From a virus: 36,319 nt of DNA. A program made the translations under genes and the position numbers. The notes under the pieces are model-generated. The model had not been told where the DNA came from and did no database searches. It saw only the letters and a program-made list of their open reading frames with translations. The stretch spans positions 1 to 36,319 of the IMG/VR virus record IMGVR_UViG_3300036768_000129; one strand, given 5' to 3'. This document shows, piece after piece, positions 2,123-23,044 of this stretch. The first letter of the stretch is position 1. Every line of letters starts with the position of its first letter.

Positions 2123-2554
2123 TCAGAATGGATAATCGTCGTCAAGGTCGCTGAACCCGCCCGCCTGTGCAGCATGACGGCTTGGCGAATCCGAAGCGGG
2201 CTGTGACATGCCGCCAGACTTGCCGCTTCCAGCCTCGCGTCCGCCACCGGCAAATTCAATCTCCAACACCCTACCGGCCAGCTTGTGGCCTACCGTCTGG
2301 CCCTGCTTTGTCCAGGTCTCAATGTGTGGATCGGATAGGACAACGACCACGGCGGTGCCTTTCGTCAGGTGCTTGGCTAGCGACTCCGCGCGCTTGCCGA
2401 ACAGAGCAGCGTCTACCCACTGCGTCGGCTTGTTGCCGTCTTCGCCCTTCTGGCCGTAGTTGAAGGCAAGGCGCAAGTTGGCGACAGGTTCTCCGCTTGT
2501 GGTGTAGCGGAGCTCTGCGTCCGCGCCGAGTCGGGCTAGTCCTGTCAGGATCAT
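2123..2554 (-). CDS. ssb: Single-stranded DNA-binding protein
   Basis: The 143-residue protein has an OB-fold of SSB type: an N-terminal LTGLARLGADAELRYT strand pair, a WVDAALFGKRAESLAKHL segment and a GRVLEIEF strand. A flexible Gly/Ser-rich tail ends in DLDDDYPF, the acidic tip that recruits partner proteins. The ATG at 2554 overlaps the recT stop (ATGA) and follows GGAGG by seven bases, so the longer upstream reading is unlikely. It coats single strands made by the exonuclease and works with RecT in the same operon. Confidence 0.95.
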   Translation of the reverse strand: MILTGLARLGADAELRYTTSGEPVANLRLAFNYGQKGEDGNKPTQWVDAALFGKRAESLAKHLTKGTAVVVVLSDPHIETWTKQGQTVGHKLAGRVLEIEFAGGGREAGSGKSGGMSQPASDSPSRHAAQAGGFSDLDDDYPF

Positions 2555-3468
2555 TGTCCATCCTCCGCTGAATCGAACTCTTTCACCCATCCGTCATCCT
2601 TTGCGGGTTGGCTGGTTGCGCTCTGTGCCGTCTGCTCCGCCTGCTGCTCATGCTTGGGCTGCTCTTGCGCGGCCTGCTGCTGCTCCAAGACTTCGCCAGT
2701 GTCCTGGTCAATCGTCAGCGGGTTGTCCTGCGGGATGCCAAGGTCCACGCGCTCATCCGACTCGATGGCCGAGGCCAGTTCCACGCTGATCGGAAGCCAC
2801 TTGAACAGGCGGCGCACCACCGTCTTTAGTGCCATGGCCTCGAAGTGCGTCACCCACGGTCCGCTAGACCCGGCCCGGGACTGTGCCCGCACGGCCTCCA
2901 CCTCGCGGCGGCCCATGACCTCGAATTGCACCCCGCCGTCCTTGAGCTTGGCCACGGCGTACACGAACCGCAGCTTGTCCGGCTGCACCCGGTTCGGATT
3001 CTCAAAGTCCGGGACGTGCCGAAGGTTGCTCTCAAGCCCAAGGGCCACCTCGAACGTGTCCCCCTCGTACACGGGCCGCGCTTCGATGCTCACGATCTGG
3101 CCGGACCTGCGGGCCAGGTCGATCATGCCGCGATAGCCGACGATGAACTGAACTTCGGTCCTGTTGGCCTTGCGGTTTTCGAACGGGATCAGGTAGGCAT
3201 GGCCGAGCGGTCCGCCAGGCTCAAGGCCAAGCTGTGCGCACGTCATGAGCGCCCCAAGAAAGCTGGTCTGGTCGCATCGCGCAAGCGCCGGATTCTTGCG
3301 CACCTCGGTCAAGGCCACGCGCGCCAGCCGGTCGGCGGTGACGTGCTTGGGCATGGCCAAGGACATTTGCGCTTTGATCTTCGGATCGGAGAGCAACGCG
3401 GCGATGTCGTTTGCAGGCTTGCGGGTGGCCGGAGCTTGGCCGGTGACTGCGGCTTTGAGCGATGTCAT
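2551..3468 (-). CDS. recT: RecT-family single-strand annealing recombinase
   Basis: The 305-residue protein matches RecT in length and motif order. These include DRLARVALTEVRKNP (about 46-60), the LGALMTCAQLGLEPGGPLGHAYLIPF block (71-96), FIVGYRGMIDLARRSG (108-123) and a WVTHFEAMALKTVVRRL segment in the C-terminal half. The tail is rich in Gln, Glu and Ala. RecT anneals complementary single strands made by a 5'-3' exonuclease, here the YqaJ protein upstream. The start has AGGAG seven bases before the ATG and overlaps the stop of the previous gene (ATGA). Confidence 0.95.
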   Translation of the reverse strand: MTSLKAAVTGQAPATRKPANDIAALLSDPKIKAQMSLAMPKHVTADRLARVALTEVRKNPALARCDQTSFLGALMTCAQLGLEPGGPLGHAYLIPFENRKANRTEVQFIVGYRGMIDLARRSGQIVSIEARPVYEGDTFEVALGLESNLRHVPDFENPNRVQPDKLRFVYAVAKLKDGGVQFEVMGRREVEAVRAQSRAGSSGPWVTHFEAMALKTVVRRLFKWLPISVELASAIESDERVDLGIPQDNPLTIDQDTGEVLEQQQAAQEQPKHEQQAEQTAQSATSQPAKDDGWVKEFDSAEDGQ

Positions 3469-5360: not shown

Positions 5361-5627
5361 TTACCGTCCGTCATCGCGGACAACAATTGACCCAACCGGG
5401 AAGTAGATCGCGGCCAATGCCAGCGCACCAGCTACGCGGCGGCACTCAAGATCAGTGGAGCACTCGATCCGCCATCCGTCGCGGGCCATGCTGGCAAAGG
5501 CCGAGCCGTCCATCGGTAAGCTGGACTTGGCCCGCATGACGACGCCAAGCCCGTATCTGGAGTGCTGGCTCCGGTCGGTCCAGCGTAGCCGCTCGCTTCG
5601 GCCTTCGGGGGAGATTAGGCGGATCAT
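5361..5627 (-). CDS. Hypothetical protein with ARDGWRIECSTD motif, paralogue of 35537-35800
   Basis: The 88-residue protein shares with the product of 35537-35800 an SPxGR start, an LRW motif, SxYGxGV, an AFAS-x-x-RDGWRIECSTD core and a terminal IVVR, at nearly equal spacing. These shared positions argue for gene duplication within this phage and for a real coding sequence. The ATG at 5627 overlaps the stop of the zinc-ribbon gene (ATGA). Function unknown; the compact alternating pattern suggests a small alpha/beta protein. Confidence 0.75.
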   Translation of the reverse strand: MIRLISPEGRSERLRWTDRSQHSRYGLGVVMRAKSSLPMDGSAFASMARDGWRIECSTDLECRRVAGALALAAIYFPVGSIVVRDDGR

Positions 5628-6025
5628 TGCCCGTCCTCCGCATCGTATTCTGATCTGGCTGCGCGTATCGCGTACCAGTCTTCTCTGGTCAAAATGCGTG
5701 GTTTCTCGTCACCATCCAGCGAATACGACGTGTTGCACGCATCGCACGCATAGATGCGATAACGATCAGCCGGGTGAGGACTGATTTGCTCTGCGTATTG
5801 GCACCCGCAATTCGGGCAGCCGTCACGTACCAATGTGTAGGCAGACGAGTCGTCGCCTCCGTCCTCAAGAGCGCGAAGAGCGCGGGCCTCCTCATCGTCG
5901 CACTCGGCGCACAGGTAAACCGTGTGCGACTGACCTCCGCTGGTCCAGACGACCGGCCACGTCGGCCTCGCGCCGCAATAGGCGCATGGCTCGTTGGATG
6001 CACCATCGGGCAGGTGTGTTTCCAT
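5624..6025 (-). CDS. Double zinc-ribbon protein
   Basis: The 133-residue protein contains four CxxC knuckles: CAYC and CAEC in the first half, CPNC and CDAC in the second. It probably folds as two four-cysteine zinc ribbons joined by an acidic linker (EARALRALEDGGDD). Zinc ribbons of this kind bind nucleic acid or partner proteins. I chose ATG 6025 because AGGAGG is spaced seven bases from it. An ATG five bases further upstream is too close to the site and leads into another frame. It lies one base after the VWA gene stop and is co-transcribed with the AAA+/VWA pair. Confidence 0.75.
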   Translation of the reverse strand: METHLPDGASNEPCAYCGARPTWPVVWTSGGQSHTVYLCAECDDEEARALRALEDGGDDSSAYTLVRDGCPNCGCQYAEQISPHPADRYRIYACDACNTSYSLDGDEKPRILTREDWYAIRAARSEYDAEDGQ

Positions 6026-6026: not shown

Positions 6027-7367
6027 TCATTTCCTCCTTGTGAGAGTTTCAACAGCCGCGGCAATGTCGCCGTCGGCGATGATGGTGTAATCGCACCAGT
6101 CCGTATCAAACGGCGCGATGCTAGGGTTTGGGTTCGCCCACAGCACCCGGATACCAGCCTCCGCAGCCGCACGGTAGCCAGCCGTGCCGTGGGCGTCTCC
6201 GAACACCAGGATGTGCGAGACGCCAGCGGCCTTGAGCCGCGACCACCCGGCAACGTCATCGCCGTGCCTGTTGCCGACGATGGGCGGCAGCTTGGCAAAG
6301 CGGTATGCGCCGCGCCCGACGATGCGGGAAGGGTCTAGCGATCCCTCCGCACCTTCTTCTACTGCTGGCGTGGCGGCGGCGTAGAAGCTGCTGTAACGCT
6401 TGGCCATGGCCTCGGCGATCCCCCAGGTGCGGGCGGCGATCCAGCCGCATGACCCGCTCACATCGTAGATGACGAGCAGGCCCCGGACTGCGGGCACGTC
6501 CCGGCGCATCCGATGCAGCCGCACCTGACGGGTGACAAGCTCGTGGACCACGCGCTTGCCGTCCCACATCGGAGACGGTTCCGGGCGGGCGGCATCCGCC
6601 ATCAGGCGGGAAAGTGCAATGCTGATACGCGCAACCTCCGCCACTCGTGCGAGTGATTGCGAGACTCCCACGACACAACCGCCGGATGCGTCCTGGGAGT
6701 CGGCCTCGGGTGACCCTGCGTCCCCGGAAGCCTGTGGCGCGCTCGTAGGACCACTGATGGACTCCACGCCGCCCGCAGCAGGGCACCGGCTGCCTTCCGG
6801 CTCTTCGTCGGCGGGCATGGAGTCATCATCGATGGTTTGGGAGCCCATCCCCTCGGTCACCTCTTCGGTTCCGGTCTCACCCTGGCCGGTGGGCTGCCCC
6901 GCTTTCGCGGACGAGTCGCTAGGCTCCAGCGTGCCGCCACTGTTGGCGTCATCGCCGACCGCTTCGCGCTCGCGACCTTCGGGCGTGTCTCCGGTAGAGC
7001 CCGCATCGCAGGCGCTTTCGGAGCCAGTCCGGTTGTCTGCTGCCGTCTCAGCGGCGTGCTCGCACTCGCCGCTGTTGCCGTCGCCTCCGTGGGTGTTGGC
7101 GTCAGCGTTGGCGTGCTCGCCTTCGCTGATTGGCGCGTCTTCTCCGGCCATGTGGTCAGTGCGCTCAGCGCGCGCGCGGTCTGCCTCGATGCTGAGCACG
7201 TCGGCTGCCGCGGCGAACGCCCCATACCGGCTTATGAGCCGGTCGATGGCGCGCAGAGCGTCATCGCCCCACCCGATAGCGTGGGCGACCGCGTCCGCTT
7301 CGGCAGACATTGGCCACCGTCCCCGGCTCATGAGACGGCGGCAATCGCGGAGCGTGAGGGCGCTCAT
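6027..7367 (-). CDS. CobT-like von Willebrand factor A (VWA) protein
   Basis: The 446-residue protein has three parts. A short helical N-terminus (1-70) is followed by a long low-complexity acidic linker rich in Gly, Ser, Asp and Glu (about 70-225). The C-terminal VWA domain starts near 290 and has the metal-ion (MIDAS) motif DVSGS at 302-306. This layout matches CobT, the cobaltochelatase subunit partner of the AAA+ CobS, and more loosely the ViaA-type partners of MoxR ATPases. The ATG overlaps the AAA+ gene stop (ATGA). No chelatase large subunit is present, so cobalamin synthesis is unlikely; a MoxR-type remodelling role is inferred. Confidence 0.8.
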   Translation of the reverse strand: MSALTLRDCRRLMSRGRWPMSAEADAVAHAIGWGDDALRAIDRLISRYGAFAAAADVLSIEADRARAERTDHMAGEDAPISEGEHANADANTHGGDGNSGECEHAAETAADNRTGSESACDAGSTGDTPEGREREAVGDDANSGGTLEPSDSSAKAGQPTGQGETGTEEVTEGMGSQTIDDDSMPADEEPEGSRCPAAGGVESISGPTSAPQASGDAGSPEADSQDASGGCVVGVSQSLARVAEVARISIALSRLMADAARPEPSPMWDGKRVVHELVTRQVRLHRMRRDVPAVRGLLVIYDVSGSCGWIAARTWGIAEAMAKRYSSFYAAATPAVEEGAEGSLDPSRIVGRGAYRFAKLPPIVGNRHGDDVAGWSRLKAAGVSHILVFGDAHGTAGYRAAAEAGIRVLWANPNPSIAPFDTDWCDYTIIADGDIAAAVETLTRRK

Positions 7368-8194
7368 GCTGCCCTCCGGCGCTGGGCGACTATCTCGCCC
7401 CAGATTGCCGCGATCAGGCGGCGCACCTCTGGCGTGTCCACCGCCAGCGCGCCTTCGTCTGTGCGTGCCGCCCAGGCCCGCAGGGTTTCGGCCACGGCGT
7501 CTGCCGAGTCCGCGACTGTCCACACCTCGGCGCAGGCATGGGCGATCTCCTGGAGGCTCAGGGCTTCGTTGCCCTCCGCCTTGGCCACTATCTGGCAGGC
7601 CCGATCCATGAGGCGGACGACGCCAAGATGGGCACCACTGCGGGCTGCGGCAAGCTCAACGCGGAGCGCCTCCGGCATCGGCTGCATGCGCAGCCGACGG
7701 CAGCGGCGCAGGAGCGCGTCGGTGTGCGGACGCTGGCCGTTGCTGGTGATGACCACCAGCACGCGGCTCAGGTCGGTCTGTAGGTGTTCGCCGGGTTTGA
7801 CGGGCACTCGGCCCGACTGGAGCCAGTCGAGCAGCAGGGCCTCAACTGACTCAGGGGCCTTGTCCATCTCGTCGAGGCAAACCACGACGAGCGGATGCTC
7901 ATGGCTTGCCTTGGCAGCCAAGGCCAAGATGCCGGGCTGATGGACGCCGGCGGCATCACCGGCCACGGCTGCAGGGACGTTGACCCCGGCGAAGAGGTCA
8001 TCCGCACCGCTCCAGGAGTGGAGCAGAGCGTAGAGAAACACCCCGCCGTGCTCGCGGGCGATGGCATCCGCGAGGGCAGTTTTGCCGGTACCGGGCGCGC
8101 CGGTAACCAGCAAGGACCGAGCGCTGTGTCCGGACTGGGCTAGGAGGGATGCCACCGCCTGGGCGGTGGCTGTAGTGTGGCGGTAGGTCATCAT
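7364..8194 (-). CDS. MoxR/CobS-like AAA+ ATPase
   Basis: The protein of about 276 residues has Walker A GAPGTGKT (32-39), Walker B VVVCLDEM (103-110), sensor 1 VITSNG (148-153) and an arginine-finger-like ALLRRCRRL (160-168). This is the order of the MoxR/CobS branch of AAA+ proteins. The double ATG at 8194/8191 follows AGGAG; the second ATG has the better spacing. It is the first gene of the leftward operon and is coupled to the VWA gene. MoxR/VWA pairs act as chaperones or metal-insertion motors; what this one acts on is unknown. Confidence 0.85.
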   Translation of the reverse strand: MMTYRHTTATAQAVASLLAQSGHSARSLLVTGAPGTGKTALADAIAREHGGVFLYALLHSWSGADDLFAGVNVPAAVAGDAAGVHQPGILALAAKASHEHPLVVVCLDEMDKAPESVEALLLDWLQSGRVPVKPGEHLQTDLSRVLVVITSNGQRPHTDALLRRCRRLRMQPMPEALRVELAAARSGAHLGVVRLMDRACQIVAKAEGNEALSLQEIAHACAEVWTVADSADAVAETLRAWAARTDEGALAVDTPEVRRLIAAIWGEIVAQRRRAA

Positions 8195-8256: not shown

Positions 8257-8284
8257 ATGATACAACAAAAATTTTACCAGTCAA
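8257..8284 (-). promoter_or_regulatory. Leftward early promoter (sigma-70 type)
   Basis: Read leftward: -35 TTGACT (8284-8279), a 16-base AT-rich spacer and -10 TATCAT (8262-8257). It points into the AAA+ ATPase gene and is the only strong candidate to drive the leftward operon. Confidence 0.6.
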
Positions 8285-8867: not shown

Positions 8868-9838
8868 GCCGAGAACCTTTCTCCAGAATACCCCTCCAGG
8901 TATGGCAGGACAGGCGTCTGACATTGGAGCAGTTGCGCGTTCTCGGCGTCCTGTTCTCCTTCGCCAACAAAGAGCTTGAGGCATGGCCAAGCCGATCGGC
9001 GATAGCCGAACGTTGCGGAATGCACGTCGCCAACGTATCGAGCGCGACAAGGAAGCTCGTTGATCTGGGGTGGATTCGCAAGGATGGGAAAGGCGGTCAT
9101 TCGCTTCCTTGCCGATACCGGATAACGATTCCTGAAACACTAGCCCAACAGGCTACTACATCCATAGCCGAATCGGCTACCGATAACAGTAGCCGAATGG
9201 GCTACAGATCAAGAAACAAAACCCTAGCCGATTCGGCTACCACCCCCCTAGCCGATTCGGCTACCACCCCCCTAGCCGATTCGGCTACCACCCCCCTAGC
9301 CGATTCGGCTACCACCCCCCTAGCCGATTCGGCTACACGCAAAGAACAGACCATTGAACAGACCATTGAACAGACCATTGAACAGACCATTGAACAGACC
9401 ATTGAACAGACCAGTGGCACACACCCTACCGTTGCTTGCGCAACGGCTCCCCAAAAATCGAAGTTGTCCGATGAGATGAAAAACGCCTGCCGAGAAACAT
9501 GGCGGAGATACTCGCTGGCATACCTGGATCGCTACGGTATCGAGCCGGTGAGGAACGCGAAGGTAGCCGCGCAAGTGGTGTCCTTCGTCAAGCGCATCCC
9601 GATGGCCGACGCCCCTCACGTAGCGGAGCACTACGTCTCATCGAATGCCAGGTTCTACGTCGAGCGCGGGCACGCCTTCGGGAACCTGCTCGCCGATGCC
9701 GAGAAGCTACGCACCGAGTGGGCAACGGGGCGCAGCATCACCGCAGCAACAGCCCGCCAGATTGACGCGACACAGAGCAATTTCAACGCAGCGCAGCAGG
9801 CCAAGGCCATGCTTGCCGCAAGGAGGACCAAACCATGA
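8864..9838 (+). CDS. Replication initiator (lambda O-like) carrying internal iterons
   Basis: The 324-residue protein begins at TTG 8864, with GGAGG seven bases upstream and overlap with the previous stop (TTGA). Residues 1-90 are a winged helix-turn-helix typical of phage replication initiators (LTLEQLRVLGVLFSFAN, then AIAERCGMHVANVSSATRKL, then DLGWIRKDGK). The middle (about 91-185) is low-complexity, encoded by palindromic repeats and then EQTI repeats. The C-terminus (190-324) contains ARFYVERGHAFGNLLADAEK, common in phage replication proteins. As in lambda, the origin seems to lie within the initiator gene. Confidence 0.8.
   Translation: MSREPFSRIPLQVWQDRRLTLEQLRVLGVLFSFANKELEAWPSRSAIAERCGMHVANVSSATRKLVDLGWIRKDGKGGHSLPCRYRITIPETLAQQATTSIAESATDNSSRMGYRSRNKTLADSATTPLADSATTPLADSATTPLADSATTPLADSATRKEQTIEQTIEQTIEQTIEQTIEQTSGTHPTVACATAPQKSKLSDEMKNACRETWRRYSLAYLDRYGIEPVRNAKVAAQVVSFVKRIPMADAPHVAEHYVSSNARFYVERGHAFGNLLADAEKLRTEWATGRSITAATARQIDATQSNFNAAQQAKAMLAARRTKP
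9141..9335. repeat. Eight palindromic iterons, putative replication origin
   Basis: Eight 15-bp units of the form TAGCCGA-T-TCGGCTA start at 9141, 9165, 9190, 9225, 9249, 9273, 9297 and 9321. The last five are perfect palindromes spaced exactly 24 bp and separated by C-rich CCACCCCCC spacers. The first three are degenerate, keeping TAGCC and GGCTA arms. They lie inside the initiator gene, as lambda O-binding iterons do. They are probably bound as dimers by the winged-helix domain encoded just upstream (inference). Confidence 0.75.
9344..9415. repeat. Six tandem 12-bp repeats (GAACAGACCATT)
   Basis: Five exact copies and one variant last copy follow the iterons directly and encode EQTI repeats. 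Repeats of this type are prone to slippage, so copy number may vary. They may act as a flexible linker, or as DNA close to the unwinding site. Confidence 0.9.
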
Positions 9839-11718: not shown

Positions 11719-12980
11719 CCCGCATCGTTATCCCGCCAATCGACCTGCACCCAGGCCAGCGCCGCGTACTCGATACGCCAGCGCGGTTCAAGGTCATCAG
11801 CGCCGGGCGGCGATTCGGGAAAACAATGCTCGCCGTGGAGTGGCTCGCGCTCATGGAAGGCGGGGCGATTGACGGCAAGCCCGTGGCGTTTCTCTCCCCA
11901 ACGTACAAGCTGCTGCTGGACGTGTGGGCAGATATGGAGCGCACGCTAAAGCCAGTTACGCGCAAGGCCAACCGGACGGAAATGCGTATCGAGTTGATAA
12001 CCGGCGGGGTGATCGACTTCTGGACGCTTGGCGACCCTGACGCTGGCCGGGGCCGCAAGTATGCCCGCCTCGTGATTGATGAGGCCGCCCATGCCCGCTA
12101 CCTCAAGGACGCCTGGGAGCGGGCCATAAGCCCGACGCTGACGGACTACAGCGGCGATGCGTGGTTCATCAGTACCCCAAACGGCCTGAACTACTTCCAC
12201 GAGCTTTTCCGTCGCGGTGACGACCCGACGTTTCCAGATTGGGCCAGTTTCCACATGCCGACGAGCGTCAACCCGCACATAGACCCGGCAGAGATCGAGC
12301 AGAAGCGCCGTGAGCTTCCCGATCTGGTGTTCCGGCAGGAATACCTGGCCGAGTTCGTCACCTTCGGCGGTGGGCTGGTGAAGCCGTACATGCTTGTGGA
12401 TGCGCCTTGCCCCACCGGTTTGCCAGTTGTGCTCGGCGTTGACCTTGCAATCAGCGAACGCTCAGGCGCGGACTACACCGCCATCGTGGCGCTTGCCCGT
12501 GATCCTGAAACCGGCATCGTGTACGTCAAGGAGGTCGAGCGTCACAGGTGCGGCTTCCATGACGTGCTCCAGCGCATCAAGGCCGCAGCCGCGAGACACA
12601 GCCCCATCCTTATCGCAATCGAGCAGACGCAGTACCAGGCCGCCGTGGTGCAGGAGCTTCTAAGGACGACCCAGCTACCCGTTCGCGGCATCAAGCCGGA
12701 CCGCGACAAGCTGACGCGCTTCTTGCCCGTGCTCACCCGCTACGAGCAGCGCATGGTGCGCCATGATCCGTCTGGCGTCCCGGCCTGGTTCCGCGACGAG
12801 TTGCTTTCCTTCCCCGAGGGCGAGCACGATGACGGCGTGGACGCGCTGGCCTATGCTTTTGCTGGGATAACGTCTGCTATCGTAGGATACGGCTATGAGC
12901 CGGTCGGATCGCGTAGATGGTCCGGCAAGCAGGACCAGGCGCCGGATGATGCGCCTATGGACAAGTGGAGCGCGTATTGA
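11715..12980 (+). CDS. Terminase large subunit (packaging ATPase-nuclease)
   Basis: The 421-residue protein has the Walker A variant SAGRRFGKT (29-37), Walker B RLVIDEAA (118-125), the coupling motif ISTPNG (152-157), and a C-terminal RNase H-like nuclease. That nuclease starts at LGVDLAIS (240-247), with a further acidic site near EHDDGVDALAYA. It pumps DNA into the procapsid and cuts concatemers. The stop overlaps the portal start (TGATG). Confidence 0.96.
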   Translation: MTRIVIPPIDLHPGQRRVLDTPARFKVISAGRRFGKTMLAVEWLALMEGGAIDGKPVAFLSPTYKLLLDVWADMERTLKPVTRKANRTEMRIELITGGVIDFWTLGDPDAGRGRKYARLVIDEAAHARYLKDAWERAISPTLTDYSGDAWFISTPNGLNYFHELFRRGDDPTFPDWASFHMPTSVNPHIDPAEIEQKRRELPDLVFRQEYLAEFVTFGGGLVKPYMLVDAPCPTGLPVVLGVDLAISERSGADYTAIVALARDPETGIVYVKEVERHRCGFHDVLQRIKAAAARHSPILIAIEQTQYQAAVVQELLRTTQLPVRGIKPDRDKLTRFLPVLTRYEQRMVRHDPSGVPAWFRDELLSFPEGEHDDGVDALAYAFAGITSAIVGYGYEPVGSRRWSGKQDQAPDDAPMDKWSAY

Positions 12981-14530
12981 TGGACACCAAGACCCTCAAA
13001 ACCGAACTCGCCGCCCCGGCACTGACCGGCTTTCGCCAATCGTGGACGTGGCGGCCTCTGGCAAGCCTCACGCCCGCCCAGGTGGCCGAAATCCTGCGAC
13101 GCGCCAGCATGGGCGATGCGCATGACTTCCTCATAGCCGCCGCAGACATCGAGGAAAAAGACCTGCACTATCGCGCCGTGCTCCAGACCCGCAAGCTGGC
13201 GGTGGCGGGCCTGCCGTTGGAGGTGCAGCCCGCAGAAGATTCGCGCGCGGCGAAGAAGGCCGCCAATCTGGCGCGAACAGTGCTCGAATCCATCGACCTG
13301 CCCGAGCTATTGGTGCAGCTTCTTGATGCGCTTTCCAAGGGCTACGCGGTGGCGGAAATCCTCTGGCAGACCGACGGCCCCACCTGGACGCCAGCCGCCA
13401 TCCTGCCGCGTGAAGCGCACTGGTTCAGATTCGACCGCGAGACCGGGCGCGAATTGCGCCTCATGGACGGGACGCCTGACGGCCAGGAACTGCCGCCCTA
13501 CAAGTTCATCTCCCATTCGCCAAAGGTCATGGCCGGTATCCCGCTCATGGGCGGGCTGGCCCGCTCTGCACTGTGGGCCTGGGTGTTCAAGAGCTACGCT
13601 TTGCGCGATTGGGCGGCCTTTGCCGAGACCTACGGGCAGCCGGTCCGCCTGGGCAAGTATGGGCCTGCTGCCACGCGGGATGACATCGCGGTGCTCAAGC
13701 GGGCTGTGTTTGAGCTTGGATCGGATGCAGGAGCGGTTATCCCGGAGAGCATGGCCCTGGAAATCGTGGAGAGCGGGGCCAAGAGCGCGTCGGCGGACCT
13801 GTACCAGAGCCTCATCGAGTACCTGGACAGACAGGTTTCCAAGGCCGTGCTTGGCCAGACGCTTACCACCGACCAGGGCAGCAGCGGGAGCCTCGCCCAG
13901 GCCAGCGTCCACAACGAGGTACGCGCCGACTTGATGCGCGCAGACGCCCGCGCGCTTGCCGCCACGCTCACCAGAGACCTGATCGCCCCGCTCATCGCCC
14001 TCAACATGCCAGACGCGCCACTGCCGCGCCTCTCGCTCATGGTGGAAGAGCCGGAGGACATGGCCGCGCTGGCCGATCAACTGGCCAAGTTGGTGCCGCT
14101 TGGCGTGCCGATCCCGCAGGCCTGGGTGCGGGAGAAATGGGGCATCCCAGAGGCCGCGCCGGATGAGCCTGTGCTTGGTGCTCCGGCCACGCCACCAGCG
14201 CCGCCCGAGCCGGAGTCCACCGACCAGGCCGGACAGTCCGCGCATCGCAGCACGCAATCCGCACACGCCACCGCCGACGGGTCAGACCCCACCCCAATCG
14301 ACCCAATGACCGACCGCATGGACACAGAGAACGCGCCCGCGTGGGTGGAGATCATGGACGGCATCAAGCGCATCGTGGCCGAGGCGCAGAGCATGGAGGG
14401 CTTGCGCGATGCGCTGCTGGCGGCCTATGGCAACCTGCCCACCGACCGGCTCACCGAGGTAATGGCGATGGGCTTCGCAGCAGCAGACCTGGCCGGTCGG
14501 TACGACGTGCGGCAGGAGTCCGCCGCGTGA
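12980..14530 (+). CDS. Portal protein (Mu gp29-like, DUF935)
   Basis: The 516-residue protein follows the Mu gp29 family: an early LHYRAVLQTRKLAV segment, LSKGYAVAEILW, WAAFAETYGQPVRLGKY, and the LGQTLTTDQGSSGSLAQASVHNEVRADLMRAD region typical of the family, then a helical stem. A Pro/Ser/Thr-rich linker (about 395-445) leads to a short helical C-terminal domain. It forms the dodecameric ring through which DNA enters the head. I chose ATG 12980, which overlaps the terminase stop; an upstream GTG adds five residues. Confidence 0.95.
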   Translation: MDTKTLKTELAAPALTGFRQSWTWRPLASLTPAQVAEILRRASMGDAHDFLIAAADIEEKDLHYRAVLQTRKLAVAGLPLEVQPAEDSRAAKKAANLARTVLESIDLPELLVQLLDALSKGYAVAEILWQTDGPTWTPAAILPREAHWFRFDRETGRELRLMDGTPDGQELPPYKFISHSPKVMAGIPLMGGLARSALWAWVFKSYALRDWAAFAETYGQPVRLGKYGPAATRDDIAVLKRAVFELGSDAGAVIPESMALEIVESGAKSASADLYQSLIEYLDRQVSKAVLGQTLTTDQGSSGSLAQASVHNEVRADLMRADARALAATLTRDLIAPLIALNMPDAPLPRLSLMVEEPEDMAALADQLAKLVPLGVPIPQAWVREKWGIPEAAPDEPVLGAPATPPAPPEPESTDQAGQSAHRSTQSAHATADGSDPTPIDPMTDRMDTENAPAWVEIMDGIKRIVAEAQSMEGLRDALLAAYGNLPTDRLTEVMAMGFAAADLAGRYDVRQESAA

Positions 14531-14730
14531 CTGACGACGCGGACCGCGCCGACGAGATCATCGCGCAGACCGTAGCGGACGCGCTGGAATCCGCGCGCCG
14601 AAACGTCGGGCCATTGGCCACAGGGCGTTGCCTGTGGTGCGATGATCCGGTTGCGGAAGGCCGCCGCTGGTGCGGCCCGGAGTGCCGATCCGAATGGGAT
14701 CTATACCATGCCGCAGAAAACCGCCGCTGA
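14527..14730 (+). CDS. Small zinc-binding protein between portal and gpF
   Basis: The 67-residue protein starts at GTG 14527, overlapping the portal stop (GTGA). It has a helical acidic N-terminus and a knuckle pair CLWC...CGPEC followed by RSEWDLYHAAE, resembling short zinc-finger proteins found beside phage head genes. Its end overlaps the next gene by 23 bases. Function unknown. Confidence 0.7.
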   Translation: MTDDADRADEIIAQTVADALESARRNVGPLATGRCLWCDDPVAEGRRWCGPECRSEWDLYHAAENRR

Positions 14731-15499
14731 CTCGTCCTTTGCCTTCATATTCAGCCGCCCGTTCGCGGAGCAGGTGGCGTTTTTCCGTGGCAAGATCGGC
14801 AACCTGGTCCCGACGAGACGATGGGACGACATCCAGAAGGAAGCCCACGACCGCGCCTTCATGGTGGCCGGGGCCGCTAAGGCCGATCTGCTGGCCGATC
14901 TGGCCGCCGCCGTGGACAAGGCCATCAACGAGGGCGAAACGCTCGATGCTTTCCGCAACCGCTTCGGCGACATCGTGCAAAAGCACGGCTGGCACGGATG
15001 GAAGGGAGAGGACACGGAAGCAGGCCGCGCATGGCGCACGCGGGTCATTTACCAGACCAACCTTGCCACCAGCTACTCATCCGGTAGGCTGGCGCAGTTG
15101 CGCGATTCTGGCTATCGCTACTGGATTTATCGCCACACGCCGAACGAGCATCCGAGGCTCCACCATCTTGCCTGGGATGGGATGATGCTGCCCACCGACC
15201 ATCCTTTCTGGCAGACGCACTACCCGCCCAATGGCTTCGGATGCGGATGCCGGGTTGTCGGGGCCAACGGACCCAAGACGGCGAAGCTGGTGGGCGGAAA
15301 CCCGGACTACAACGAGCCGCCGCCGGGATGGGACGAGATCGACGAGAAGACCGGGGAGCAGGTTGGCATTGACAAGGGGTGGGGTTACATGCCTGGGCAG
15401 ACGTCGGACCTGGTGCGGGAGATCGAGCGCAAGGCGGCCAATCTGCCTCAGCCGCTTGGGGACGCATTGCGCGCGGACATCATGAGGACCGGGAAATGA
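14708..15499 (+). CDS. Head morphogenesis protein (Mu gpF / SPP1 gp7 family)
   Basis: The 263-residue protein contains the SPP1 gp7 signature in its second half: TRVIYQTNLATSYSSGR, then YWIYRHTPNEHPRLHHLAWDG, then the HYPPNGFGCGCRV block with its cysteines. In Mu this minor head protein is needed for capsid assembly and protection of ejected DNA. I chose ATG 14708. The stop overlaps gpG (ATGA). Confidence 0.93.
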   Translation: MPQKTAADSSFAFIFSRPFAEQVAFFRGKIGNLVPTRRWDDIQKEAHDRAFMVAGAAKADLLADLAAAVDKAINEGETLDAFRNRFGDIVQKHGWHGWKGEDTEAGRAWRTRVIYQTNLATSYSSGRLAQLRDSGYRYWIYRHTPNEHPRLHHLAWDGMMLPTDHPFWQTHYPPNGFGCGCRVVGANGPKTAKLVGGNPDYNEPPPGWDEIDEKTGEQVGIDKGWGYMPGQTSDLVREIERKAANLPQPLGDALRADIMRTGK

Positions 15500-15978
15500 T
15501 CCGCATCGACATCGACGACCGCGAAGTTCTCAAGGCGCTTGACAACCTCCGCCGCCGCACATCGAACATGAAGCCGGTCATGCACACCATCGGCCAGTCG
15601 CTGATGGAGGGCAGCCGTGAGCACATCATCGCCGGGCGGGACTGGACCGGGCAGCCGTTCGCCCCCAACAGCCCGGCCACGCTTGCCCGCAAGAAGGGCA
15701 ATAAGCCGCTCATCAACGAAAGGACGTTCGTCAGAAGCCGCCTGCACTACGAGGCCAGCAATGACATCGTGATAGTCGGATCGTCCGCCGTGCAAGCCGC
15801 CGTGCTCCAATTCGGGGCCAAGAAAGGGGCCTTCGGCGCGACAAAGCGCGGGGCCAAGATACCGTGGGGCGACATCCCCGCTCGGCGTTACTTTCCGGTA
15901 ACACAGGACGGCAGGATAGACGACTCGGCAAGGTCTCTGATCATTGACGCCATACGCGCGTATCTGGCGGATGGGTAA
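15496..15978 (+). CDS. Virion morphogenesis protein (Mu gpG family)
   Basis: The 160-residue protein has the family order: an N-terminal helical part (LKALDNLRRRTSNMKPVMHTIGQSL), WTGQPFAPNSPATLARKKG, a hydrophobic strand (DIVIVGSSAVQAAVLQFGA), IPARRYFPV and a C-terminal helix. It is thought to join head and tail. It ends the first late gene block; an 88-base gap with a promoter follows. Confidence 0.9.
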   Translation: MIRIDIDDREVLKALDNLRRRTSNMKPVMHTIGQSLMEGSREHIIAGRDWTGQPFAPNSPATLARKKGNKPLINERTFVRSRLHYEASNDIVIVGSSAVQAAVLQFGAKKGAFGATKRGAKIPWGDIPARRYFPVTQDGRIDDSARSLIIDAIRAYLADG

Positions 15979-15979
15979 C

Positions 15980-16008
15980 TGGACAAACCAATATCCGTCT
16001 GCTATACG
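15980..16008 (+). promoter_or_regulatory. Late promoter-like site 1, before the accessory virion module
   Basis: TGGACA (15980-15985), a spacer of exactly 17 bases ending in TGC, and TATACG (16003-16008). The same -35, spacer length, and 12-base TGCTATACGGCG core recur at 19746-19774, and both lie in rare intergenic gaps. Repetition in the two gaps supports function. Confidence 0.6.
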
Positions 16009-16066
16009 GCGGCCTAGGCAAACTTTCCCGTGAGCAACGAGGTCCGGTCCTTTTTGGAGGTGCACG

Positions 16067-16507
16067 ATGGGCGCAAAATCTGACTACCTGGAAAACAAGA
16101 TCATCGACTGGCTCTTTCGTGGCCAGACCTACACACCGCCCGCAACCATTTATGTCGGCCTGCTCACCTCCGCGCCGACAGATGCGGGCGGCGGAACCGA
16201 GGTGAGCGGCGGCAGCTATGCGCGCGTTGGCGTATCCGGCGGCCTGACAAACTGGTCCGGTACGCAAGGCGCTGGCACAACCACGGCCAGCACAGGGACG
16301 AGCGGCACCACGAGCAACAACGCGGCTATCACCTTCCCGGCGCCAACGGCAAACTGGGGCACCGTTACCCACTTCGCCCTGTACGATGCGGCATCCGGCG
16401 GCAACATGCTGTATTACGCCGCGCTTACCACGCCCAAGACGATCAACAACGGAGACGCCGCGCCGAGCTTTGCGGCTGGTCAGTTGTCCGTGCAAGAGGA
16501 CAACTAG
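16067..16507 (+). CDS. Small virion protein of the phage tail-fibre/decoration type
   Basis: The 146-residue protein begins MGAKSDYLENKIIDWLFRG and continues PPATIYVGLLTSAPTDAGGGTEVSGGSYAR. It has a Thr/Ser/Gly-rich middle, then NWGTVTHFALYDAASGGN and a conserved end. This is a widespread phage family often labelled tail fibre or Gp80-like; I recall it from other siphophages. It is mainly beta-strand. GGAGGTG lies just before the ATG. It opens the seven-gene module inserted between gpG and the protease. Confidence 0.75.
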   Translation: MGAKSDYLENKIIDWLFRGQTYTPPATIYVGLLTSAPTDAGGGTEVSGGSYARVGVSGGLTNWSGTQGAGTTTASTGTSGTTSNNAAITFPAPTANWGTVTHFALYDAASGGNMLYYAALTTPKTINNGDAAPSFAAGQLSVQEDN

Positions 16508-16518
16508 CGGGACTGGCC

Positions 16519-16983
16519 GTGAGCCACATCGTCCTCGCCTTCTCGCACGACCCGCGAGACTGGATCAGCCGTGCGATGGCCTGGTTGACGCATGGCCGCT
16601 ACACACACGTTGCCCTCGTATCTGGCGACGGGTCGGAGGTGATCGAGTCGAGCGGCGTGGGCAGGCCGCAAGGCGTGCGGATGGCCAGCTTCGCGGCCTG
16701 GGCCGCCCGGCATCCGAACTACGTGCTGCGCAAAATACACCACCAAAATCCTGATCTGGTGTGGCGCATCGCGGCCTCTAGGCTTGGCGATGGGTACGAT
16801 TGGGCCTATCTGTGTGGTTGGCTGTTCCGCCGCAACTGGCAGGACTCGTGCAAGTGGGTCTGCCACGAGTTGATCGTGTGGGCCTGTGAGCGGGCGGGGC
16901 GCGCAATCATCGACATGGACGAAGCGCAATGGCTCACGCCTGAGCACCTGTATCTCGTATCTCAACCTTTGGATCGACCATGA
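16519..16983 (+). CDS. Permuted papain-like (YiiX/NlpC-P60-type) amidase
   Basis: The 154-residue protein starts at GTG 16519. It has HGRYTHVALVSGDGSEVIES near the N-terminus and CKWVCHELIVWACE near the C-terminus. This His-first, Cys-last order matches permuted papain-fold peptidases and amidases (YiiX type), with catalytic His in THVA and Cys in VCHE. Such enzymes cut peptide or amide bonds in the cell wall or lipids. Its place among virion genes suggests a wall-opening enzyme carried in the particle (inference). There is no signal peptide. Confidence 0.6.
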   Translation: MSHIVLAFSHDPRDWISRAMAWLTHGRYTHVALVSGDGSEVIESSGVGRPQGVRMASFAAWAARHPNYVLRKIHHQNPDLVWRIAASRLGDGYDWAYLCGWLFRRNWQDSCKWVCHELIVWACERAGRAIIDMDEAQWLTPEHLYLVSQPLDRP

Positions 16984-17432
16984 CCAACGACCAACTCGCG
17001 GCGCTGGCCGCTGAGATCACCAGCAACCCGGTCTATGCGGACTGGATCGCCAACGGCAACGACCAGCAGATCGCCGATGCGCTCAACGCCACTACGCGGC
17101 CCGTCGTGGGTAGCTTGTCGCGTTCTCGGTTCAGCATGTGGTGTGGTGTCAGCGGCCTGCGTGCGGCCATTGCAGACCACGCGGCCAACCCGGCCTCGCC
17201 CCTTCGCGCCGTGGCGCTGACGGTGCAGGACTTCCTGCTCGGCGGGGTGGCTGACTCCATCGACTTTGCCGATCCTGCCAATCAGGCCATGCTGCAAGCG
17301 TGGGTGCAAGCCGGGGCGCTCACGCAAGCGCAAGTGGACGAGCTACTGGCGCTGGCCACTACCCAGCAGCCGGTGTTTGGTACTGTGAGCAATCTGGACG
17401 TGGCCCGCGCTCTGGGCCGGACGGGGGTCTGA
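16980..17432 (+). CDS. Hypothetical virion-module protein
   Basis: The 150-residue protein is helical, Ala-rich and without cysteine clusters. It starts MTNDQLAALAAEITSNPVYADWIANGNDQQIADALNA and later has MLQAWVQAGALTQAQVDELLALAT. Similar proteins lie next to the Gp80-like gene in other phages, as recalled. The start overlaps the preceding stop (ATGA). Function unknown. Confidence 0.75.
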   Translation: MTNDQLAALAAEITSNPVYADWIANGNDQQIADALNATTRPVVGSLSRSRFSMWCGVSGLRAAIADHAANPASPLRAVALTVQDFLLGGVADSIDFADPANQAMLQAWVQAGALTQAQVDELLALATTQQPVFGTVSNLDVARALGRTGV

Positions 17433-17433
17433 C

Positions 17434-17886
17434 ATGGCGATTACGACCAATGACATGATCGTCAAGCTTGGAACGACCAAGACACTGGAGGCCAATGGCG
17501 CGTCCATCGCCAACAATACCGTGATACAGGCCGATGATGCAATGTACAGCATCATCGACGACGGCGACAACGCGCCGGATGCGGAGTTCGTGCTGGCCTG
17601 CACGTATGCAACCGCGCCGACTGTCAACACCACCATCGACCTGTACGCAGCCGAGCAGGATATTGACGGCACCAACGATGCTGCCAACCCGACGACGACG
17701 TACAAGCCGCGCTACATCGGCAGCTTTGTGGTCAACAACGTCACGACCACGCAGTATCTCAAGCTGCGGGCCTGCGACGTTCCTACCATCGCAAGATATT
17801 TCCTGCACAACAATGGCACCGGCCAGACCGTAAGCGCCGGCTGGACTCTCAAAGTCACCCCACGGACGGTAGGCCCGAAGGTCTAA
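17434..17886 (+). CDS. Hypothetical structural protein (beta-rich)
   Basis: The 150-residue protein starts MAITTNDMIVKLGTTKTLEANG and is rich in Thr, Asn and Val. A TTYKPRYIGSFVVNNVTTTQYLKLR strand pair and a LHNNGTGQTVSAGWTLKVTP end suggest a beta-sandwich virion protein, possibly head decoration. This is supported only by composition and location. Confidence 0.7.
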   Translation: MAITTNDMIVKLGTTKTLEANGASIANNTVIQADDAMYSIIDDGDNAPDAEFVLACTYATAPTVNTTIDLYAAEQDIDGTNDAANPTTTYKPRYIGSFVVNNVTTTQYLKLRACDVPTIARYFLHNNGTGQTVSAGWTLKVTPRTVGPKV

Positions 17887-17889
17887 ATC

Positions 17890-19428
17890 GTGGCTAACCT
17901 GATCCTGCCAAGGAGATTTCAGCAGCCGATTGGCGACGCTGTTGTCGATCAGGCGTTCAGCAAACGCTGCACGTTCGCGCTCAACGCCGGGTCTGGCGCG
18001 CGAGACCTGATAAGCAGGGCTCTGCCTGGGGCGGCTGGCTCTGGCGTTTCATGGACGGCGGGTAACGCTGGCCGTGCACTGAAGTTCGACGGTACGCAGG
18101 CCAACGGTGCGTTTAGTTGGGGCACGAGCTTCAACCCGTTCGCAGGATCGAAAGGGCTGACTGTCGTAGCGGTCATCAACTACGACACGAGCGCATCGCG
18201 TCGGGTTTTGGCGAAATGGGGAGCATCGCCGAACACATTTGTCTGCGGCATCGGCAGTGGCTCTCTCGGCGAGCCTACTTTAGGCATAGGAGATACAGCA
18301 GGAGGTTCTGAAGCCTACAGATCAAGTGGCTTGCATATCCCAGCGAACAAAGACACGGTTGTCGTCTTTCGGTGGAATGGCGCGAACGGCGCTGCCGGGT
18401 ACTCGTTTTTCGTCGATGGCGTAAAAGCACCGAGCGTCGTTTCTGTATACGACACCACCGACCCAACGGCTGTCCCAGCAAATACGACCGGAAACTTTCA
18501 GCTTGGCGTATCTGATGATGGAGCGCCAGCGCTTGGCAACGTCTATGCGGCCTTCGGGTTCAACGGCGCGCTCACGGACGCCGAATGCTTTGCCCTATCT
18601 CGCAACCCGTGGCAAATCTTCAAGCCCGCCCGGCGCGTGCTGTATTTCGACGCAGGCGGCGGAGGTGGCCAAGCCCTGGAAGGCTCTGCATTGGCCAGCG
18701 CAGCGGCGAGCGGCACGCTTACAACCGAGATACCGATATCTGGCGCTGCCGCCGTTGTCACCACCTCCAGCGGTGGTCTGACCACCGCCATCCCGCTCTC
18801 AGGATCGGCGTCCTCTGTGTCCGTCGTGGACGGCAATCTCACCACCACCATCACGCTCACCGGATCGGCCATCGCCCAAGCATTCGCCCAGGCCGGGCTT
18901 GATAGCGCCATCCTGCTTTCTGGGGCGGCATCCACCAGCGCATCTGCATCCGCCAGCCTCACCACGCAGATGAGCCTCTCCGGTGAGGCCATCGCCGCCG
19001 CGTTGGCAGCAGCCGACTTGGCCACCACACCATCTGGACTGTCAGGCCAAGCCAGCGCAGCAGCAAGCGCATCTGGAGCTCTGCTCACGCAGATTCCGCT
19101 CGTTGGCGACGCGCAGGCGTACAGTATCGCGTCAGGCGGACTGACGACCCTCATACCGCTATCTGGCGCGGCGGCTTCCGTCTCCAGCGCATCTGGCGAT
19201 TTGACGATAGAGGCCACCATGAGAGGCGAGGCCATCGCCGCCGCCGTTGCAGGTGGCACACTCAGCACTCAGATCATCCTCAGCGGCGCTGCCCTGTCCA
19301 ACGCGGCTGCGTTGGGATCGCTCGGCGGCGGTACGGTGCTGCCTGCCGTACTGCCCCACCTCGTTGAAGCGATAATCTCGGACTGGACCGTACAGGCAGA
19401 CAATGGCCCATGGGAGATTGCCGCATGA
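17890..19428 (+). CDS. LamG-domain virion protein with ten 20-residue repeats
   Basis: The 512-residue protein (GTG start) has an N-terminal LamG/concanavalin-like beta-sandwich (about 50-240). It shows LTVVAVINYDT, VVVFRWNG, YSFFVDGV and NVYAAFGFNGALTDAEC, closing with the NPWQIFKP motif common to phage LamG proteins. After a Gly run, residues 277-477 are ten units of about 20 residues (LTTxIPLSGxA...). A short C-terminal part (IISDWTVQADNGPWEIAA) follows. LamG domains bind sugars, so a surface or receptor-binding role is likely (inference). Confidence 0.75.
   Translation: MANLILPRRFQQPIGDAVVDQAFSKRCTFALNAGSGARDLISRALPGAAGSGVSWTAGNAGRALKFDGTQANGAFSWGTSFNPFAGSKGLTVVAVINYDTSASRRVLAKWGASPNTFVCGIGSGSLGEPTLGIGDTAGGSEAYRSSGLHIPANKDTVVVFRWNGANGAAGYSFFVDGVKAPSVVSVYDTTDPTAVPANTTGNFQLGVSDDGAPALGNVYAAFGFNGALTDAECFALSRNPWQIFKPARRVLYFDAGGGGGQALEGSALASAAASGTLTTEIPISGAAAVVTTSSGGLTTAIPLSGSASSVSVVDGNLTTTITLTGSAIAQAFAQAGLDSAILLSGAASTSASASASLTTQMSLSGEAIAAALAAADLATTPSGLSGQASAAASASGALLTQIPLVGDAQAYSIASGGLTTLIPLSGAAASVSSASGDLTIEATMRGEAIAAAVAGGTLSTQIILSGAALSNAAALGSLGGGTVLPAVLPHLVEAIISDWTVQADNGPWEIAA
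18718..19320 (+). repeat. Ten 60-bp coding repeats (20-residue units)
   Basis: Units start at L277 and recur every 20 residues (one has 21) with the pattern L-T-T-x-I-x-L-S-G-x-A followed by an Ala/Ser-rich half. DNA identity between units is low, so the repeats are old and kept at the protein level. Confidence 0.85.
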
Positions 19429-19733
19429 TCGCCAAAAAGTTCCCGCCCGTAGCGCCCGAGGCGCTAATCCCGCTGGCATTCAGCTTCGCCCGCTTCCTCG
19501 GCCCATTGGCGTCCATAAGCAGCATCAAGAGCGTGTCCATCGCCGTTGAGTATGGCGACGACCCGGCAGCCTCTACGCGGCTCTATGGAGTGCCAACCAT
19601 AGACGGCCAGCGCGTGGTGCAATGGGTGCGCTATCCGGTGCTTGGATGCGTCTATCGCGTCAAGGCTGTTGTGGTGGCATCTGATGGCCGAGAGTGGCCA
19701 TGTACCGCGCTGCTGCCGGTGCATGAGCTTTAG
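19425..19733 (+). CDS. Hypothetical protein closing the accessory module
   Basis: The 102-residue protein starts at ATG 19425, overlapping the LamG gene stop (ATGA). It has a hydrophobic first third (PEALIPLAFSFARFLGPLASI), then a beta-rich part (VQWVRYPVLGCVYRVKAVVVAS) and ends WPCTALLPVHEL. The family is unknown. Confidence 0.7.
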   Translation: MIAKKFPPVAPEALIPLAFSFARFLGPLASISSIKSVSIAVEYGDDPAASTRLYGVPTIDGQRVVQWVRYPVLGCVYRVKAVVVASDGREWPCTALLPVHEL

Positions 19734-19745
19734 CACTCGCTTTTC

Positions 19746-19774
19746 TGGACAAGTAGATGATCGTGTGCTATACG
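19746..19774 (+). promoter_or_regulatory. Late promoter-like site 2, before the protease gene
   Basis: TGGACA (19746-19751), a 17-base spacer ending TGC, and TATACG (19769-19774). It is a near copy of site 1 at 15980-16008 and lies in the 70-base gap between the accessory module and the head protease, so it would drive head and tail genes. Confidence 0.6.
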
Positions 19775-19803
19775 GCGCCCATGAAACAGGACATGGGTTC
19801 GGT

Positions 19804-20856
19804 ATGACTTACGGCCACCCAACAATCACCGCATACCACGCAGCTGCCCACGCGGGGCTCAGGCTCGCGCGCAACGCCATCTCACTGCCGCTCCTCCCTG
19901 CCGACGCCGACGAGGCGTCCTTCACCCCGCCGGATTGGGTCCACCTCATTCCGGCGGGGACTTTCTCCGGGCGGGACGGCCGCGGGCCGTACACGCTGGA
20001 TGCCAAGGCGGTGCTGGATGCCTTTGACGCCAATGGGGCGGACCTGCCCATCGACTACGACCACCAGAGCCTCACCGCCGACGAAAAGGCCGGGCCGGTG
20101 CCCGCAGCCGGTTGGATCAAGGATCTACAGGCACGCGAGGACGGCATTTGGGCGCGGGTGGACTGGACGCCGCGCGCCGCCGAGCTGCTCGCCAACAAGG
20201 AATACCGCTACCTCTCGCCGGTCTTCCGCTACCAGGCCAAGACTGGCCAGGTGGTGGCGCTGTCCGGCGCGGGGCTCACCCACAACCCAAATCTCTATCT
20301 GCAAGCCGCAGCCTCACGAAAGGAGAGTCACGCCGTGGATGATCTACTCGAACGCATCATTTACATGCTCAACCTGCCGGTGACGGCCACGCCCGACGAA
20401 GTGGCAGCCGAGCTGCAAAAGCTCGTCGACAGGCTCAAAACCGCCGAGGCCGCAGCCGCCCAGGCAGCCGAACAACTCGCCGCCGCGCAGGCGCGCCAGC
20501 CCGATCCGTCCCAGTACGTGCCGGTGGCCCTGCACAAGCAGGTGGCCGACCAGCTCGCCGCGCTTCAGTCCGACCTGGCGAGACGCGAGGCCGAGGCTGC
20601 GGTGGAAGCCGCCATGAGCGCGCGCAAGGTTTCGCCTGGTATGAAGGATTGGGCGCTGGCCTACGCCAGCAGCGACATCGAAGGCTTCAGGGCCTTCGCC
20701 GCTGCCGCGCCTGAGATCGTGTCCGCATCCGAGACCAATCCCTCCGCGCACAGCGTGGGCGGTGTGGCCCTATCCGACGAAGACCGCCTCGCCGCCAAGC
20801 TGCTCGGTATGACCGAGGAGGTGTTCGCCCAAGCCAAACAACTCACCAAGGAGTAA
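19804..20856 (+). CDS. Head maturation protease and scaffold (Mu gpI-like)
   Basis: The 350-residue protein has the Mu I pattern in its first half: DWVHLIPAGTFSGRDGRGPY, LPIDYDHQSL (His candidate), GPVPAAGWIKDL, and YLSPVFRYQAKTGQVVALSGAGLTHNP. The C-terminal half is a coiled-coil, Ala/Gln/Glu-rich scaffold. The protease is expected to process scaffold and head proteins during maturation. I chose ATG 19804; its ribosome-binding site is weak. A second start inside gives the scaffold alone. Confidence 0.9.
   Translation: MTYGHPTITAYHAAAHAGLRLARNAISLPLLPADADEASFTPPDWVHLIPAGTFSGRDGRGPYTLDAKAVLDAFDANGADLPIDYDHQSLTADEKAGPVPAAGWIKDLQAREDGIWARVDWTPRAAELLANKEYRYLSPVFRYQAKTGQVVALSGAGLTHNPNLYLQAAASRKESHAVDDLLERIIYMLNLPVTATPDEVAAELQKLVDRLKTAEAAAAQAAEQLAAAQARQPDPSQYVPVALHKQVADQLAALQSDLARREAEAAVEAAMSARKVSPGMKDWALAYASSDIEGFRAFAAAAPEIVSASETNPSAHSVGGVALSDEDRLAAKLLGMTEEVFAQAKQLTKE
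20335..20856 (+). CDS. Nested scaffold protein (Mu gpZ-like), internal in-frame start
   Basis: A GTG at 20335, in frame with the protease, is preceded by AAAGGAGAG nine bases upstream, a far better site than that of the protease itself. It would give a 173-residue protein beginning VDDLLERIIYMLNLPVTATPD, followed by the coiled-coil region. Mu makes scaffold Z this way from the end of gene I. Confidence 0.7.
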   Translation: MDDLLERIIYMLNLPVTATPDEVAAELQKLVDRLKTAEAAAAQAAEQLAAAQARQPDPSQYVPVALHKQVADQLAALQSDLARREAEAAVEAAMSARKVSPGMKDWALAYASSDIEGFRAFAAAAPEIVSASETNPSAHSVGGVALSDEDRLAAKLLGMTEEVFAQAKQLTKE

Positions 20857-20862
20857 TCAAAC

Positions 20863-21768
20863 ATGGCCATCATCACCCCCGCCCTCATTACCAGCCTGCG
20901 CACCGGCTTTTCCAAAGCCTTTCAGGATGCGCTGACCAAAACGCCCACTGACTGGGACAAGGTTGCTACCCGTGTGCCGTCCACTTCGGCGTCCAACACG
21001 TATGGTTGGCTGGGCCAGTTCCCTACTCTGCGCGAATGGGTTGGCGACCGCGTGCTCAAGGACATGGCCGCGCAGGCCTACCAGATTCAGAACAAGCTGT
21101 TCGAGGGCACGGTCCCGATCATGCGCACCGACATCGAGGACGATAACGTCGGCATCTATACCCCGTTGTTCGAAGAGATGGGACGCGCCGCAGCCACCCA
21201 CCCGGATCAGCTCGTCTTCGACCTGCTCAAGAACGCGCACACCACCAACTGCTACGACGGGCAGTTCTTCTTCGACACCGACCACCCGGTCTATCCGAAC
21301 GTGGATGGCACCGGCACGGCGACGCAGGTTTCCAATGTCCAGGCCGGCGCTGGCACGGCATGGTATCTGCTCGACACCAGCCGCGCGCTCAAGCCATTCA
21401 TCTTCCAGGAGCGGACCACGCCGGAGCTCGAATCGATCACCTCGACACAGAATGATGACGTCTTCAAGCGCGACAAGTACCTCTATGGTATCCGCTATCG
21501 CTGCAACGCGGGCCTTGGCTTCTGGCAGATGGCCTACAAGTCGCAAGCGACGCTGGACGCTACCAACTTCAACTCCGCCATGAGCGCGATGATGAGCATC
21601 AAGGCCGACGGTGGACGTCCCATGGGCATCAAGCCTACCGTGCTGGTTGTGCCGCCGTCCTTGCGCGCCAATGCCATCGAGATCGTGAAGAACGAGCGCC
21701 TGGCCAACGGTGCTTCCAACGCCAACTTCGGGGTTGTCGATCTGATCGTGTCCCCGTGGCTGATCTGA
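20863..21768 (+). CDS. Major head protein (Mu gpT-like)
   Basis: The 301-residue protein follows the Mu T family: start MAIITPALITSLRTGFSKAFQDAL, then YGWLGQFPTLREWVGDR, YQIQNKLFEGTVPIMRTDIEDD, FFFDTDHPVYPNVDG, WYLLDTSRALKPFIFQER and LVVPPSLRANAIEIV. It forms the capsid shell. GGAG lies upstream of the ATG, six bases after the protease stop. Confidence 0.95.
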   Translation: MAIITPALITSLRTGFSKAFQDALTKTPTDWDKVATRVPSTSASNTYGWLGQFPTLREWVGDRVLKDMAAQAYQIQNKLFEGTVPIMRTDIEDDNVGIYTPLFEEMGRAAATHPDQLVFDLLKNAHTTNCYDGQFFFDTDHPVYPNVDGTGTATQVSNVQAGAGTAWYLLDTSRALKPFIFQERTTPELESITSTQNDDVFKRDKYLYGIRYRCNAGLGFWQMAYKSQATLDATNFNSAMSAMMSIKADGGRPMGIKPTVLVVPPSLRANAIEIVKNERLANGASNANFGVVDLIVSPWLI

Positions 21769-23042: not shown

Positions 23043-23044
23043 AA

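Follow-up and report, generated by a model that had tools for sequence, protein, structure and literature searches.

A divergent lineage of virus-encoded MoxR-class ATPase and VWA-domain protein pairs with its own linker motif

Positions 6027-8194 of the window (the whole stretch of DNA analysed here, a 36,319-base viral metagenome record) hold exactly two genes on the minus strand, an AAA+ ATPase followed by a VWA-domain protein, coupled by an ATGA overlap of 4 nt, as an earlier note on this DNA had described. MoxR/VWA pairs are a known type of viral gene neighbours, and the lineage represented in the window is a new, divergent variant with a signature motif of its own. We tentatively read the pair as a chaperone of the MoxR/VWA kind, presumably expressed early, that would remodel a DNA-processing or host protein; we give this reading slightly less than an even chance, and weigh it below against the alternatives.

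Locus and protein architecture

The features of the locus are as follows.

8257..8284, minus strand: sigma70-like promoter upstream of the operon (TTGACT-16-TATCAT, 10/12)
7364..8194, minus strand: AAA+ ATPase gene P0001, 276 aa, MoxR class, NorQ/CbbQ-like
8078..8101, minus strand: Walker A, GAPGTGKT, residues 32-39 of P0001; G-P-G.GKT invariant in 13 relatives
7868..7888, minus strand: Walker B region, VVVCLDE, residues 103-109; D108 and E109 invariant
6027..7367, minus strand: VWA-domain adaptor gene P0002, 446 aa, overlapping the AAA gene by ATGA
7065..7091, minus strand: linker nonapeptide HGGDGNSGE, residues 93-101 of P0002
6450..6464, minus strand: MIDAS motif DVSGS (DxSxS), residues 302-306
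6195..6200, minus strand: conserved G390-D391, probable third MIDAS element
5624..6025, minus strand: zinc-ribbon gene, 133 aa
3826..4809, minus strand: RecE-like/YqaJ exonuclease gene, same operon (phrog_434, 4.8e-92)
2551..3468, minus strand: RecT-like annealing protein gene, same operon (phrog_148, 4.3e-99)

The sigma70-like site lies just upstream of the AAA gene; in 1 kb, three promoter-like sites were found against an expectation of 0.4. In the window the pair does come first after the putative early promoter, as had been proposed; this is not general, as in the related contigs L009 and L001 the AAA gene has further same-strand genes ahead of it. The double zinc-ribbon gene reported to come next is indeed there: it starts at 6025, two bases beyond the VWA gene, and its product has CxxC pairs at both ends, with the N-terminal ribbon conserved in a close clade of relatives. 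The C-terminal ribbon (within window 5624-5830) resembles the Lar restriction-alleviation family weakly, at 2e-5, which falls short of the cut-off. The RecE-like and RecT genes follow downstream on the same strand, in agreement with the suggested recombination-operon context. A search of Rfam for a conserved RNA element gave no match.

The identity of the two proteins as a MoxR-like AAA+ ATPase and its VWA partner is supported by sequence and predicted structure. P0001 matches AAA_5 at 6e-12; the NCBIfam family matched by most AAA relatives is the MadB ATPase model, which all 13 of the aligned relatives hit, in every case far below its cut-off. The protein has the features of the MoxR class, i.e., Walker A and B motifs, a helix-2 insert (by our own assignment at about residues 64-87), a pre-sensor-1 hairpin, sensor 1 and an arginine finger, and a hairpin at 129-139 is visible in the structure model. 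GxPGxGKT, D108E109, N152 and R163/R164 are invariant across 13 AAA sequences. The lid helix carries SLQE, in which S213 and L214 are nearly invariant and Q215 and E216 invariant, apparently at the place where CbbQ/MoxR have STR/GPR. The sensor-2 arginine of those proteins appears to be replaced by the invariant Gln215, in a putative register that places this residue outside the hhalign-aligned range, and because of this replacement the ATPase behaviour of P0001 may differ from theirs.

In the model of P0001 (pLDDT 87.9) the AAA core and lid fill the whole 276 aa. Its best 18 Foldseek matches comprise one CbbQ chain, all the others being NorQ (best E 5e-13), and VIA-align gives Z of 17-19.4 for CbbQ/NorQ and at most 16.6 for the other folds listed; the AAA profile likewise matches CbbQ-type proteins (Prob 95.6, E 1e-8). 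The predicted AAA fold is closest to NorQ/CbbQ among solved MoxR structures. CobS, absent from the structural hit lists of P0001, remains compatible with it as a fold.

P0002 has the CobT-like layout ascribed to it, consisting of an N-domain (~1-60, with conserved TLRD..R and IDRLISR), a low-complexity acidic linker (~61-230; about 170 residues, of which 24% are acidic, 5% basic and 6% hydrophobic) and a C-terminal VWA domain (~231-446). By sequence, this last domain stays below every curated threshold: VWA_CoxE is matched at 0.028 with the full-length protein and at 0.0048 with the domain alone, 16.8 bits against a Pfam gathering cut-off of 26.4, and nine of the 12 relatives match the same model weakly (best 1.6e-4). 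The MIDAS residues are nevertheless strictly conserved, as D302, S304 and S306 together with G390-D391, which follows a predicted strand, are invariant in 12 VWA sequences; this assignment comprises DxSxS and the downstream Asp, without the threonine position. A model of P0002 (pLDDT 77.8) shows a C-terminal domain that is a Rossmann-like VWA by the order of strands and helices, and its top matches in a viral library are mostly phage VWFA/CobT proteins, plus ATV p892 and the VWA protein of phage P74-26. The longest structural alignments of the domain, 155-160 residues, are to the NorD VWA and MDN1-MIDAS, with modest Z of 5.8-5.9, tied with unrelated Rossmann folds. Run as a profile against PDB sequences, the VWA alignment returned nothing relevant.

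Distribution, linker peptide and two VWA types

Relatives of the AAA protein were found in a set of 2.9 million viral contigs at 34-90% identity. Besides the window, the pair itself occurs in 11 or more viral contigs and in one MAG contig (L015), down to 34% AAA identity; contig L004, which breaks off directly behind the AAA gene, and L014, a partial AAA match, were left out of this count. Wherever the gene after AAA is fully readable, its product is a VWA protein whose linker is long and of low complexity, and the two genes stay closely spaced across the range from 34% to 90% AAA identity. No match was found by tblastn among the 50,697 phages of INPHARED with the AAA proteins of the window, L010 and L012, the window VWA protein and the zinc ribbon as queries. 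Cellular or prophage homologues were confined to L015, the single positive, by itself, among 297 genomes of its group.

The proposed three-gene module holds for a close clade, where all six readable members (window, L001, L002, L003, L008, L009) have the zinc ribbon after the VWA gene, so the trio does recur in other viruses. It was not seen in the more distant pair members. The trio is a feature of one clade, and the AAA/VWA pair is the core unit. Genes for RecE/RecT, ERF, UvrD, SNF2, Cas4-exonuclease or helicase lie near the pair in six genomes: the window, L003 and L009 show it in a recombination operon, and L001, L020 and L023 have recombination or helicase genes in its vicinity. Since the sampled neighbours of the pair in L010 and L012 include structural genes, the replication context is not universal.

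The linker drifts except for the nonapeptide HGGDGNSGE, which is exact in eight of 12 aligned pairs; L015 has HGGDGSSGE, L023 has HGGDSASGE, and the peptide was not found in L010 and L013. A search of the 2.9 million viral contigs with the back-translated DNA pattern gave nine matches, of which eight are AAA/VWA pairs, and the peptide can therefore be taken as diagnostic of the family. Seven of the nine contigs already belonged to the family, the AAA/VWA pair encoded by the eighth (L029) is divergent, and the ninth is a chance match, with HGGDGNCGE in an unrelated frame. Binding to the ring and binding to the target are both possible roles for the peptide.

Within the close clade the VWA proteins fall into two types, type A in the window, L001 and L009 and type B in L002, L003 and L008. 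Between types the motors are 77-81% identical and the VWA domains 20-28%; within types, the corresponding values are 86-90% and 73-77%. The type B domains are 33-36% identical to those of distant L010 and L015, above their identity to type A, and the linker identity between A and B falls from ~0.48 near HGGDGNSGE to ~0.2 at the linker end. Such divergent VWA domains on such similar motors suggest domain replacement, and recombination in the linker would be the simplest reading of the sequences. An AU test of the A and B VWA domains as sisters gave p 0.36, i.e., common origin with extreme acceleration was not rejected. A bolder and, in our estimate, unlikely extension is a retargetable phage machine, in which the AAA+ motor and the linker motif would stay nearly constant while the VWA domain, swapped by recombination within the low-complexity linker, would be exchangeable and select the target, letting phages follow changing DNA-processing or defence proteins of their hosts.

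At the DNA level, synonymous sites of the linker (window 6690-7187, and L001, L002, L003, L008, L009) are more conserved than those of the flanking domains. This excess was seen in four of the five within-type pairs compared, though the linker protein is less conserved than its flanks: at fourfold-degenerate sites the linker value is 0.81 against 0.47-0.52 elsewhere for L003/L002 and 0.67 against 0.27-0.46 elsewhere for window/L001, with little contrast for window/L009. In most within-type pairs the three codon positions have near-equal identity. An overlapping gene was considered and rejected, as codon positions are similar and none of the other frames shows conservation or stays open throughout the relatives; the pattern would fit recombination or a DNA-level constraint.

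Known relatives and the possible role of the pair

Viral MoxR/VWA pairs have been published for ATV, haloviruses, cyanophages and jumbo phages (PMC4124505, PMC7911831, PMC8651126, PMC7824862), and MoxR/VWA or cobST-annotated pairs occur in haloarchaeal siphoviruses and many tailed viruses (PMC7911831, PMC8651126). Virus-encoded AAA+/VWA neighbours include ATV p618/p892, those of Hardycor1/HCTV-2/HVTV-1, P74p49/P74p48, those of GMA7 and those of jumbo group 2.2. The suggestion that such a module is not usual in siphophages thus needs qualifying, given the haloarchaeal siphoviruses and the siphophages P74-26 and Gordonia phage GMA7, both with the AAA-then-VWA order of the window (the GMA7 protein in the place of VWA carries the annotation hypothetical, and a length of 607 aa was the basis for equating it with a CobT-like structure hit). 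The P74-26 pair, which lies near genes for DnaB helicase and a resolvase, has no significant protein similarity to the window family by BLAST, and the HGGDGNSGE search returned only the window family and the one chance match. In P74-26 (L035:26358-28870) the 'ATP-dependent protease' P74p49 is the AAA+ protein upstream of the VWA gene P74p48, and because of this arrangement the two genes probably form a MoxR/VWA pair, and the protease label is probably wrong.

Among cellular systems, NorQ/NorD (nitric oxide reductase maturation) and CbbQ/CbbO (Rubisco activase) are built alike. NorQ and CbbQ, like P0001, are single-module MoxR AAA+ proteins of ~270 aa, and their adjacent VWA partners NorD and CbbO share with P0002 an N-domain, a disordered linker and a C-terminal MIDAS VWA. 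Identity to the phage pair is 14-20%; unlike these systems, the phage pair has an acidic linker with its own motif and the invariant SLQE at the probable sensor-2 site, and no NOR or Rubisco target is known in the phage. RavA/ViaA likewise joins a MoxR-class ATPase to a VWA partner, but RavA carries triple-helical and LARA domains in addition (PMC4124505), which are absent from P0001, a single AAA+ module.

In NorQD and CbbQO, a ring motor works with a VWA partner that puts a finger into the pore, while MIDAS and N-domain contact the target and the linker is stretched (PMC13036017, PMC9976466). The sequence features needed for this mechanism are largely present in the phage pair; a pore finger was not found in the P0002 model. 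By analogy, P0001 would form a hexameric ring, the VWA domain would dock its protein in or on that ring, the metal-containing MIDAS face would hold the target, and ATP hydrolysis would pull or twist the target through a lever of N-domain, linker and VWA. The pair would be made early, from an operon of recombination and replication genes, and for this reason it most probably acts on a protein, of the phage or of the host, that serves DNA replication, recombination or takeover, and most probably on neither a cofactor-insertion enzyme nor a part of the virion. DNA processing or host takeover is suggested by the recombination and helicase neighbours and by the position of the P74-26 pair near DnaB and resolvase.

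The host side of this proposal can be taken further, to counter-defence or takeover in which the VWA domain captures a host protein, e.g., a nuclease complex, for the motor to take apart. We regard this as rather unlikely. VWA types 20-28% identical on motors 77-81% identical are what one would expect if the target-binding end tracks host proteins, but neutral recombination can also give domain replacement; and while the early operon, the weakly Lar-like ribbon of the third gene and the small accessory genes nearby point the same way, the PADLOC matches are to generic AAA ATPase models only. Gene position argues against virion assembly, a role proposed for ATV p618/p892, the viral MoxR/VWA pair with published biochemistry, which is tied to tail development (PMC4124505), and for jumbo phages (PMC7824862). 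The window pair belongs to a recombination operon encoded on the opposite strand from the head and tail genes, and gene contexts are similar in L003, L009 and L020, so that by this measure an assembly chaperone is less likely, and on the whole improbable.

A role in cobalamin synthesis is a further alternative. CobS/CobT and the viral cobST pairs have the same gene order and the same layout of an acidic linker followed by MIDAS, and cobST pairs of archaeal tailed viruses have been proposed to raise cobalamin synthesis as accessory subunits that borrow the CobN of the host (PMC8651126). The models of CobS (TIGR01650) and CobT (TIGR01651), however, match in none of 13 viral records, and neither does CobN (PF02514), in line with the claim that the chelatase large subunit is missing; controls were positive for all three, with five positive genomes for CobN, and a CobN may still be supplied by the host. 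Homologues in a metabolic chelatase operon did not turn up. With these empty models the chelatase reading is disfavoured, and with NorQ/CbbQ as the closest folds we consider CobST-like subunits very improbable here. The remodelling chaperone remains our preferred reading. Viral MoxR/VWA pairs are widespread and often annotated as cobalamin genes, and the present family is one that fails the CobS/CobT models and adjoins recombination genes in several phages; with a diagnostic motif and two VWA types in a small phage, identification of its target by pull-down is directly testable.

The surrounding genome

The window ends in an exact 28-base terminal repeat and is therefore probably a complete permuted genome; as the same 28 bases are also part of a longer internal repeat, completeness is likely, not proven. 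The end regions (1-127, 685-1153, 1126-1252 and 35860-36319) are near-duplicates, with two diverged copies of a gene of ~105 aa and an exact 127-base repeat; probably the genome is complete and circularly permuted, or else a junction has been duplicated.

At 63% identity, the major head protein resembles those of Pseudomonas transposable siphophages, which we take to be the D3112-like group, and Mu/D3112-like head genes (12965-31500) are joined here with a RecE/RecT early region; a transposase was not noticed. An early rightward gene contains tandem repeats (9138-9427; ~5 copies of 24 bases and ~6 copies of 12 bases) that look like phage-origin iterons within an initiator gene, cf. lambda O. 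The protein encoded at 1518-2084 matches phrog_3007 (1e-21, labelled RusA-like) and, weakly, a DNA polymerase processivity factor, and is possibly sliding-clamp-like.
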